Origin: Desulfobulbus sp.
GTDB lineage: Bacteria; Desulfobacterota; Desulfobulbia; Desulfobulbales; Desulfobulbaceae
Direction: 5' to 3'
Length of the DNA stretch: 58,119 nucleotides
Assembly: GCA_011051875.1 (NCBI GenBank)
Contig: DRKI01000123.1
Span: forward strand, 1 to 58,119
The notes beneath the pieces are model-generated. The model had not been told where the DNA came from. It ran no database searches and saw only the letters and a program-made list of their open reading frames with translations. Below, piece by piece: positions 31,120 through 34,103 of the stretch. A program made the position numbers and the translations under genes. Each line of letters opens with the position of its first letter. Position 1 is the first letter of the stretch.

Positions 31120-31386
31120 TCAATCCAGGGGCTGGCCCAGGCCGGCGCTGCGCAGGACGGCCTCGTCCGGACCGGTTGCCGTGCAGCAGCCGGCAAGCCT
31201 GCCGTTGACCGCAACGGCTGGCACGGTGCGGACATTGAGCTCCCGCGCCCGTGCCGCACCCTTCCTGTCTCTCATATTGACGACTTCGACCTCACACGAC
31301 GGACAGGCCAGACGTTCGACCATGGCCACCGCCTCCTCGCAAAGCGGACACCCGGCACTGAATACTTCTATTTTCCTTGCTGTCAT
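31120..31386 (-). CDS. Thioredoxin/glutaredoxin-like protein of the mer-like operon
   Basis: An 88-residue protein with a thioredoxin fold: beta strand KIEVFSAG, active site Cys-Pro-Leu-Cys at about 12-15, and the cis-Pro loop in RTVPAVAVNGRL. Additional Cys pairs occur in CPSC (about 27-30) and CC (about 66-67), giving seven or so cysteines that could bind or pass on a soft metal. The ATG at 31386 has AGGAGG eight bases before it; the frame upstream has no signal. Cytoplasmic. Last gene of the operon with a MerR and a MerC-like transporter, so a role in handling Hg(II) or its reduced thiol adduct is likely but inferred. Confidence 0.85.
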   Translation of the reverse strand: MTARKIEVFSAGCPLCEEAVAMVERLACPSCEVEVVNMRDRKGAARARELNVRTVPAVAVNGRLAGCCTATGPDEAVLRSAGLGQPLD

Positions 31387-31511
31387 TGTCAGAACCTCCT
31401 GTGTATATTTTTCCGCAGAGTACCGAGACACGTGCTCCCTGCACGCGTCCCCTGCTCGTCCTTCCACCCGGAACCGGCCGGATGAACCACGACCTTGCGC
31501 AACCGAACCAA

Positions 31512-31535
31512 CATGGAACATCAGGATGTTCCATG
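31512..31535. repeat. Perfect inverted repeat between the selenoprotein and thioredoxin genes
   Basis: Eleven-base arms (CATGGAACATC and its complement) around a two-base centre, inside the 167-base spacer. No T-run follows on either strand. It could be a protein-binding site or an mRNA stem-loop that sets the relative amounts of the two products. Confidence 0.7.
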
Positions 31536-31553
31536 ACCCGTGATACTATCTCC

Positions 31554-31958
31554 TTACTCCCGCCCGATACCATCCGGCGGACCCGTCAGCTCGCGGACTC
31601 CTCCTCGTGCCGGCAAGGCGTTCCAGATGGAGGCGAGGATCAGCATCCCTGTTCCCCCATACACCAGGGGATCGTGAACCAGGTAGAATTTTCCGATCAC
31701 GATGGATACCGAAGCCAGCAGGCCGACGACGAGTGGTCCATAGCCGTTCCTGTTCCGGACCCTGTAGCCAAAGGCAGCAAGGGTGACGAGCAGGAAAAAA
31801 ACCGTTATTGGCAGCAGGTAGGTATCACCAATCAGAAAATTGAGCCCGACCGAGCCCAGAATGCCCGCATAGGCGGGCCAGCATCCGGGTCAGGCCAGTC
31901 TCGGCAGCAGGGCGACCGTTACAGCCGGCAGTGCGGCCAGCATTTCTTTGCTTCGCAT
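31554..31958 (-). CDS. MerC-like membrane transporter, predicted selenoprotein (in-frame UGA as Sec23)
   Basis: A 134-codon frame from ATG 31958 (AAGGAG six bases before it) to TAA 31554, interrupted only by TGA at 31890-31892. Before it stands MRSKEMLAALPAVTVALLPR-LA; after it PGCWPAYAGILGSVGLNFLIG, then several further hydrophobic helices and IVIGKFYLVHDPLVYGGTGM near the end. Relatives in mer operons, as I recall them, have Cys at this point in a CPxCWP motif, so selenocysteine would replace the first metal-ligand Cys (Sec23-Pro-Gly-Cys26). A SECIS-like hairpin starts two bases after the UGA. Flanked by merR and a thioredoxin-like gene. It probably moves Hg(II) or a related soft metal across the inner membrane. 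Gene callers would truncate or miss it. A nonsense mutation is the alternative. Confidence 0.8.
31856..31889 (-). promoter_or_regulatory. SECIS-like stem-loop directly after the in-frame UGA
   Basis: On the transcript, a lower stem CCGGAU with AUUCUGG (one bulge), a four-base 5' bulge, and a six-base-pair upper stem GCCCGC/GCGGGC with loop CUAU. The loop starts 18 nucleotides after UGA, inside the usual bacterial range. A G in the first two loop positions, common in bacterial SECIS, is absent. Confidence 0.6.
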
Positions 31959-32155
31959 AGATTGCTCCTTGTACTTACGAATCTTCTGCCAAGCCTTTTT
32001 CTTTTCAAAAAAAACATCGGCCTTGTTCACGCCCTCGACTTTGGTGAGCCCTCGTTATGTTCTGTTTTTTCCCACCGGTCAGTTGCCGCCATAAGCACAT
32101 CTGAAGCCGCAACCCACCGTGACAGGAGTCCGCCACCTGTCCGACCAGGGGAGAA

Positions 32156-32560
32156 TCACCCATCCCTGGCGATGGCCCGCAGGATCGGGCACTCGTTGAA
32201 GGGAGCATTGCCGGTACAGGACGCCAGCAGCGTGTCCAGGGCCAGACGCATTTTCTTCAGCCCCTGTATGCGCCGGTCGATATCGGCCCGCTTCTGTTCG
32301 GCCCGCTGCCTGACATCGGCACAGGTAGCCCTTGGATTTCCACACAGGGCCAGAAGTTCACCGATCTCCTTGAGCGTGAATCCAAGTTCCTTGGCCCTTC
32401 GGATGAAAAGCAGGCGCTGGACCGCCTCTTCCGGGTACTGCCTGTAACCCGATGAAGTGCGGGGTGGTGGTTCCAGCAACCCCTTGCGCTCATAAAAACG
32501 TATCGTCTCAACGCCGACGCCTGCCCGGGATGCAAGCCTGCCGATGGTCAACACCTTCAT
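32156..32560 (-). CDS. merR: MerR-family regulator with mercury-type three-Cys site
   Basis: A 134-residue regulator. The N-terminal winged helix reads TIGRLASRAGVGVETIRFYERKGLL. The dimerisation helix and metal loop follow, with Cys80, Cys115 and Cys124. Their spacing (35 and 9) equals that of Cys82, Cys117 and Cys126, the Hg(II) ligands of Tn501 MerR. An extra Cys73 is present. It should repress, then on binding Hg(II) untwist, a promoter with an overlong spacer. Such a promoter lies upstream of this gene itself (32699-32730), so the whole leftward operon, merR first, appears autoregulated. The ATG at 32560 has AAAGGA before it. Response to Hg(II) specifically is inferred from the cysteines. 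Confidence 0.92.
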   Translation of the reverse strand: MKVLTIGRLASRAGVGVETIRFYERKGLLEPPPRTSSGYRQYPEEAVQRLLFIRRAKELGFTLKEIGELLALCGNPRATCADVRQRAEQKRADIDRRIQGLKKMRLALDTLLASCTGNAPFNECPILRAIARDG

Positions 32561-33009
32561 TTTCTTGTCCTTTTCTGGGTGGCAAGCTCACCGAATCCGC
32601 ATCGGCACCAGGTACTCGATATATTTTTCACCCTCCTGCGCCCATGATGCATCACGTCATCGGCGGACCTGCAATTGGCGGAATCCGGCCATGAACATAC
32701 TGTAACCACTGTACCATACTACGGGGTCAAGAACTTTTTTGTCCCACCCTGTTCCATTGCATCCTCTCCCCGCCTGATTGACCAGGAAGGTGTCATCCAT
32801 GTGAAGCAGGCTATCGTGAACAAGGGATCTCACACGGCTGCAGCAACCCCGACCACAGGAAATTATTTTCGGTTCCTCGGGGTCAGGACGAACAGTCGTG
32901 ACGCTATCAGCCTCGGACTCGGCCTGGAAAGAGCCTCAAAGCGTGGCATGCTGTCCGATTTCCCGGGTCCACTATAACCCGGTCATGCCGGTTTGAATGT
33001 CTGTCGGGT
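32561..33009. other. Intergenic region between merR and azlD
   Basis: About 450 bases. It holds the MerR-type promoter (32699-32730), the merR leader and, between 32731 and 33009, sequence with no gene I can support. Open frames there on both strands have no start signal or recognisable protein. Confidence 0.5.
32699..32730 (-). promoter_or_regulatory. MerR-type promoter with 20-base spacer and dyad
   Basis: On the minus strand TTGACC, 20 bases, TACAGT. The spacer holds CCGTA, six bases, TACAG, an imperfect dyad close to the CCGTAC...GTACGG operator of Tn501 mer. The overlong spacer is the hallmark of MerR control. It points at merR, leaving a leader of about 130 bases. Confidence 0.6.
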
Positions 33010-33354
33010 TCAGCCCAGCCAGTGAGGTACCGAGTGAATGACTCCATAAGCCAGGGCGGGCGCCAGTGTAGAGAGAGCCAGGTTATCCGTCAACCGCTGC
33101 ACCGCCGCAACAGCAACTACTCCGGCAGCAAGGGAAAATATTTCCAGCAGGGAGAAATCATGCGCCTTCAGCAGCGAGGAAAGAGACACTGTCACCAGGG
33201 CGGCAATGGCGGCAGGTCCCAGGGACAGCAGCATTTTGTACCTAAAGGATTTTTCCGGCATCCTGGAGAAAATCCGCGTCCCTGCCATGGGCAGAAAACG
33301 CAGGAGCCATGTGCCCACTCCTACGACAATAACGGCCAGTTCAACGGTTTTCAT
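33010..33354 (-). CDS. azlD: AzlD-family branched-chain amino acid exporter subunit
   Basis: A 114-residue membrane protein with about four helices and the family start VELAVIVVGVGTWLLRFLPMA. With AzlC it forms the two-component (LIV-E) exporter of branched-chain amino acids or analogues. The ATG at 33354 overlaps the azlC stop by four bases (ATGA). An in-frame upstream extension is only shadow of azlC. Lower GC than the surrounding genes. Confidence 0.88.
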   Translation of the reverse strand: MKTVELAVIVVGVGTWLLRFLPMAGTRIFSRMPEKSFRYKMLLSLGPAAIAALVTVSLSSLLKAHDFSLLEIFSLAAGVVAVAAVQRLTDNLALSTLAPALAYGVIHSVPHWLG

Positions 33355-34103
33355 TTCTTGTTTTTCTTGATTGTTTTTTTCTTTTCCGTCGCTGCGGGTG
33401 TGGCCGGTAACGGCAGGCCTCCGAAAACCGCACCACTCAACATGCCGCCAAGCAGAGCAAGATGGTTTTCCAGCCATATTCCCAGCAAAGCAGTCCCTGC
33501 CAGGGCAAAAAGAACCGCACTTCTACCGCCATGCCGGGTACACTGCAACAGGAGGGAACAAAAAAGCGCTGGCAGCACAAATTCCAGTGTATCCCTGATA
33601 AAGGCTGACTGTTCAAGCAATTGCATCCCTGTGCATGCTCCGAGGACAGTACCGCTGAGCCAGGAAGACCAGGCCCCGGTTTCCAGACCGAGCAACCAGA
33701 CATCCATTTCCCCTTCTTTCTGCTTTGCTGTCCCGGCAATAGCAGTGGCAAATACTTCATCTGTCAGGCCAAAGGCAAGTAGTGCCAGGGGAATCCGCTG
33801 CTGCTTCCTGTCAAGATAAGAAAGAAGAGAAGGGCCGTAAAAAGCGTGACGCACATTCATGAGAAGCGCCGCTGAAATCAGGGTCCAGGCGGAAGATCCG
33901 GTCCCGACAAGGGCGACAAAAACAAACTGGCTGGCCCCGGCGAACACCAAAGCCGAAATCATCAGGGCCTGCCCGGCCGACAGACCGGCCTGGATCGCCC
34001 CGACTCCAAAGGTAAAGGCAACCGGCAGATACCCGGCAACTATGGGCAGGCTGTCCCTGATCCCCCTTCCAAAGGAGGAGACAGAAGACATAACAGCATA
34101 CAT
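33351..34103 (-). CDS. azlC: AzlC-family branched-chain amino acid exporter subunit
   Basis: A 250-residue membrane protein. Family motifs are RDSLPIVAGYLPVAFTFGVGA, FAGASQFVFVAL, MNVRHAFYGPSL and FGLTDEVFATA. The C-terminus is a Lys-rich tail. It works with AzlD as an exporter. It starts five bases after the stop of the regulator-methyltransferase gene, so the three genes are one leftward operon and the regulator probably controls export. A second ATG four codons in is possible. Confidence 0.92.
   Translation of the reverse strand: MYAVMSSVSSFGRGIRDSLPIVAGYLPVAFTFGVGAIQAGLSAGQALMISALVFAGASQFVFVALVGTGSSAWTLISAALLMNVRHAFYGPSLLSYLDRKQQRIPLALLAFGLTDEVFATAIAGTAKQKEGEMDVWLLGLETGAWSSWLSGTVLGACTGMQLLEQSAFIRDTLEFVLPALFCSLLLQCTRHGGRSAVLFALAGTALLGIWLENHLALLGGMLSGAVFGGLPLPATPAATEKKKTIKKNKK

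Follow-up and report, generated by a model that had tools for sequence, protein, structure and literature searches.

The merC-like gene on the minus strand of the window (the whole stretch of 58,119 nucleotides of Desulfobulbus sp. DNA analysed here) is best explained, with a probability that we put at roughly 0.85, as encoding an inner-membrane protein of the MerC family that contains selenocysteine (Sec) at UGA codon 23 and is a probable carrier of a soft metal. The decoding of this codon as Sec is, on the comparative sequence evidence, nearly certain, and the gene, although it looks "broken", is very probably intact.

The frame runs on the minus strand from position 31958 to 31554 and comprises 134 codons and a stop codon. 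Its sole internal stop is a TGA at 31892-31890 (codon 23), which is followed by 111 further codons, and the sequence AAGGAG, which resembles a ribosome-binding site, can be observed ahead of the ATG (AAGGAGCAATCTATG). Both this frame and the motif that begins at the UGA, UPGCWPAYAG, had been given in a preliminary description made from the sequence of the window, and both were confirmed. Standard annotation will truncate such a gene or label it as a pseudogene. The features considered in this analysis are presented in Table 1.

A search of 146 related genomes yielded 11 clear homologues, including that of the window, each with exactly one in-frame TGA, and a search of 258 genomes of the taxonomic class raised the number of UGA homologues to 14, again including that of the window. 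In all 14 genes the TGA is located on the same column, immediately before P-x-C-[W/L]-P-A-Y-A. As had been expected from the preliminary description, MerC-like proteins outside the Sec clade carry Cys at this column: a Cys codon was identified there in each of the 24 homologues examined outside the class, two of which (L053 and L054) have the variant motif CPACWSAYA. Chance cannot account for the frame, since 14 genomes of the class share it with a single TGA on an identical column, and since Cys homologues exist. In a maximum-likelihood tree that also included 11 Cys forms, the 14 UGA forms constituted one clade (support 95/96), which fits one switch between Cys and Sec.

Table 1. Location of the predicted Sec-containing merC-like gene, its RNA elements and its neighbours in the window.
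Feature	Position	Strand	Basis
merC-like gene, 134 aa, predicted Sec at residue 23	31554..31958	-	Pfam PF03203 over cut-off; 14 UGA and 24 Cys homologues
In-frame UGA, predicted Sec codon 23	31890..31892	-	UGA on the same column in 14/14 within the class, Cys codon in 24/24 outside
UPGC motif, where Cys homologues have their CxxC pair	31881..31892	-	Protein alignments
mRNA hairpin I (NUAY loop), possibly a spacer hairpin	31864..31877	-	Consensus fold; five pairs all kept in 11/14 Sec and 4/24 Cys genes
mRNA hairpin II (GGUC loop, 31851-31848), leading SECIS candidate	31841..31858	-	Covarying wobble positions; loop present in 14/14 Sec versus 1/24 Cys genes
merR-family regulator gene, upstream	32156..32560	-	PF13411, PF09278; conserved neighbour
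MerR-type promoter: TTGACC, 19-bp spacer with dyad, TTACAGT	32699..32730	-	Upstream of merR; similar sites in most relatives
Cysteine-rich thioredoxin/glutaredoxin-like gene (CPLC, CPSC, CC), downstream	31120..31386	-	PF13192 over cut-off; conserved neighbour of Sec and Cys forms

When translated with Sec, the product matched the Pfam MerC family (PF03203) over residues 12-113 with 33.1 bits (gathering cut-off 27.6), and each of the 13 sequences in the first family alignment also matched this model (E <= 0.01). The NCBIfam equivalog cut-offs for Tn21-type MerC were missed by far (NF010318, 23.1 versus 170 bits; NF033784, 20.6 versus 140 bits), and we therefore regard it as a MerC-family protein, but not as one of the classical Tn21 type. 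MerC has been described as a four-helix mer transporter (PMC3466566). The window protein shares with Tn21 MerC the Pfam family, the membrane location, a Cys pair early in the chain and a nearby merR gene; it differs in having Sec in place of the first Cys of this pair, within the motif UPxC[W/L]PAYA, and in the thioredoxin-like gene that adjoins it in place of merT-merP-merA. The window protein also resembles MerC-like proteins with Cys from the same phylum and from Polyangia (L007, L008, L046-L054 and L077-L090), which have a CPxC[W/L] motif in the same frame and, where this was checked, merR before and the thioredoxin-like gene after; in these the Sec column is occupied by Cys, and the GGUC loop is absent in 23 of the 24. 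A distant MerC-like protein, in which a CC pair replaces UPxC, was observed in a genome of the same order (L071, 394-1830); its neighbourhood again includes a MerR gene together with the thioredoxin-like gene. Two weak homologues (L029 and L030) were rejected as not being true relatives. Plasmid records gave no match, and the only match in the PDB was insignificant.

Sec has already been predicted in mercury-transport proteins, namely in putative mercuric transport selenoproteins of the MerT-like type (PF02411, C/SxxU) and in MerP of the GOS survey (PMC13188914, PMC2398784), which differ from the window protein in Pfam family and in the position of Sec. A 2026 inventory of 119 prokaryotic selenoprotein families and subfamilies lists a MerT-like protein, a MerB-like lyase, HgcA, HgcB and other metal proteins, and PF03203 is absent from its 119-entry table (PMC13188914). 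MerC is not mentioned in the main text of the deep-Sep paper or of the 2016 survey, and a Sec-containing MerC was not found in the literature consulted, in which two selenoprotein papers of Haft are represented through the 2026 review. The genes described here thus probably represent an undescribed Sec-containing branch of the known MerC transporter family, and they would extend the predicted selenoproteins to a family of membrane metal transporters. Moreover, closely similar Sec and Cys proteins located in matching gene clusters form a natural pair, which makes it testable whether selenolate in place of thiolate alters the binding or release of Hg(II) in a transporter.

The order merR - merC - thioredoxin-like gene is found in nearly all relatives, both Sec and Cys forms, where the locus extends far enough. 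The best match of the upstream regulator was the MerR model TIGR02051 (138.5 bits, under the cut-off of 150.85). Its alignments, judged by eye, place Cys at all three Hg-ligand positions (82, 117 and 126 in Tn501 MerR), so that the intact Hg(II) site reported in the preliminary description was found, as were the CPLC and CPSC motifs of the Cys-rich thioredoxin-like gene on the other flank. A 19-bp promoter spacer and three Cys ligands are characteristics of Gram-negative mercury regulators (PMC5027573). As shown in Table 1, a spacer of this length is present in the promoter upstream of merR. Lead and cadmium regulators of the MerR family have comparable Cys patterns, and the metal of this regulator is therefore not settled by its cysteines. 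In the window, merR and merC are separated by about 200 nt (31959-32155), and merC and the thioredoxin-like gene by about 170 nt (31387-31553), unlike in most other relatives, where the three genes nearly abut. Two membrane-protein frames located further upstream on the minus strand (33010-34103) resemble, by eye, an AzlD/AzlC pair of branched-chain amino acid exporter proteins.

In the mechanism that we propose, SelB and tRNA-Sec would insert Sec at UGA codon 23. The signal for this would be an mRNA hairpin, and the GGUC hairpin 38 nt downstream is the likeliest one. Sec23 and Cys26 would form a UPxC pair where the Cys homologues have CPxC. The merC-like gene would be controlled by the MerR-type regulator acting on a metal-responsive promoter, and the adjacent Cys-rich thioredoxin-like protein would either serve as the acceptor of the metal or maintain the Se/S pair in its reduced state. 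We lean towards a role in which the protein binds a thiophilic metal ion, with Hg(II) as the foremost candidate, and passes it across the membrane; here we infer the identity of the metal, the direction of transport and the role of the thioredoxin-like partner. MerT and MerE cannot transport Hg without the Cys pair of their first membrane helix (PMC5715351), and Sec23 and Cys26, judging by homology, occupy the place of this pair. In an AF2 model, which is a modest one (mean pLDDT 66), the helix is broken at residue 23. A MerA protein over the family cut-off was identified in only two of the 14 carriers (it was not found in the 80%-complete genome of the window itself), and uptake for reduction is thus not general among them; the metal might be delivered to the thioredoxin-like protein or sequestered, or another soft metal might be transported.

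The absence of MerA over the cut-off from 12 of the 14 carriers also agrees with a different function, which we consider rather unlikely: the UPxC of a Sec-containing protein with the MerC fold would serve thiol-selenol redox chemistry together with the thioredoxin-like protein, for example in the transfer of reducing equivalents from one side of the membrane to the other, and the protein would not be a metal carrier. UxxC is the common redox motif of selenoproteins (PMC13188914), and the thioredoxin-like gene is always adjacent. However, the assignment to the MerC family points to metals, as do the MerR-type regulator with its three metal-ligand cysteines and the MerR-type promoter, and we retain the metal carrier as the preferred reading.

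The genome of the window contains selA (638 bits), selB (388 bits) and two selD genes, all over curated cut-offs. Both selD genes (L043, 1501-2451; L044, 1501-2430) have an in-frame TGA at the Sec position. The complete selABCD set called for in the preliminary description was recovered except for selC: a covariance search did not find tRNA-Sec in this assembly, which is 80% complete and consists of 230 contigs, and the weak matches obtained were identified by ARAGORN as tRNA-Ser, tRNA-Leu and tRNA-Arg. Each of the 13 other carriers of the UGA form, among them the two of the same genus, has a tRNA-Sec that scores well over the cut-off. tRNA-Sec is likewise present in each of the nine genomes of the phylum with the Cys form that were examined for it, and the Cys form there is therefore not due to missing machinery. 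A second, weaker tRNA-Sec match over the gathering score was observed in several genomes of the phylum (G081, at C104:8240-8328, and G404, G165, G360 and G473); in G081 it adjoins a partial second selB match.

For all 14 Sec genes, the 54 nt counted from the UGA could be aligned without gaps, and the consensus fold consisted of two hairpins, at columns 16-29 and 35-52 (numbered from the UGA). Among the 14 genes, 95.8% of the cells of the named pairs were paired, with changes on both sides in 17 cells; the structure was derived from the same alignment that was used for this covariation count. The observed covariation was reached in 0 of 500 shuffles, a figure that is not a probability, because the sequences are related. 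The same count of pairs and covariation gave nothing in nine Cys genes. Among the Sec-specific features, hairpin II with its GGUC loop stands out most strongly; it is kept in all 14 UGA genes, compensatory changes included. At its centre, the codons TCG (Ser) and GTC (Val) are invariant in the Sec genes, in which TCG accounts for 12 of the 93 Ser codons elsewhere.

The published SECIS model requires the first two loop positions to include a G and the hairpin to lie 16-37 nt away from the UGA (PMC13188914). The loop of hairpin II has this G, but at 38 nt it exceeds the range by one; hairpin I is located within the range, and its loop G is mostly missing. The SECIS loops of E. coli fdhF and of Moorella are GGUC as well. 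In our reading, SelB binds at hairpin II, and hairpin I brings this site closer to the UGA. This SECIS candidate is positioned just outside the distance rule of the standard model, and this could explain why searches based on the model would miss the gene. The SECIS-like hairpin of the preliminary description, placed two bases after the UGA, needs correction: hairpin II (31858-31841) is the best-supported candidate, and the helix that begins at the UGA itself (UGACC:GGUCG) was rejected, since it is invariant and consequently carries zero covariation signal. A single extended helix from the UGA, as an alternative to the two hairpins, is compatible with several of the sequences. The wobble pair 18:27 was also considered as Sec-specific (12/14 Sec versus 2/9 Cys genes, Fisher 0.007), but this argument was dropped because 11 of 13 further Cys genes pair there. 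The most far-reaching reading, in which a natural membrane selenolate-thiolate pair is the ligand of Hg(II) or another soft metal and is encoded by means of an unusual two-hairpin SECIS (hairpin I from the spacer, with the SelB-binding GGUC at 38 nt), is proposed tentatively, as less likely than not.

The readings of the stop codon other than Sec are highly improbable. The frame opens with any sense reading of UGA, and an altered genetic code or plain read-through might place a different amino acid, for instance Trp, at the codon. Trp was rejected because the homologous residue is Cys and never Trp; in addition, the genome has Sec machinery, and TGA is the terminal stop of the copies of several relatives. 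An in-frame stop in a fragmented assembly (230 contigs) could also suggest a pseudogene or an assembly error at codon 23, but this is refuted by the recurrence of this UGA in 14 separate genomes, of which one is a single contig, and by purifying selection past the stop. The latter had been named beforehand as the test for decay: dN/dS after the UGA was 0.06-0.37 in seven close pairs, and third codon positions vary most in every comparison with the gene of the window, so that the merC-like gene is not decaying.
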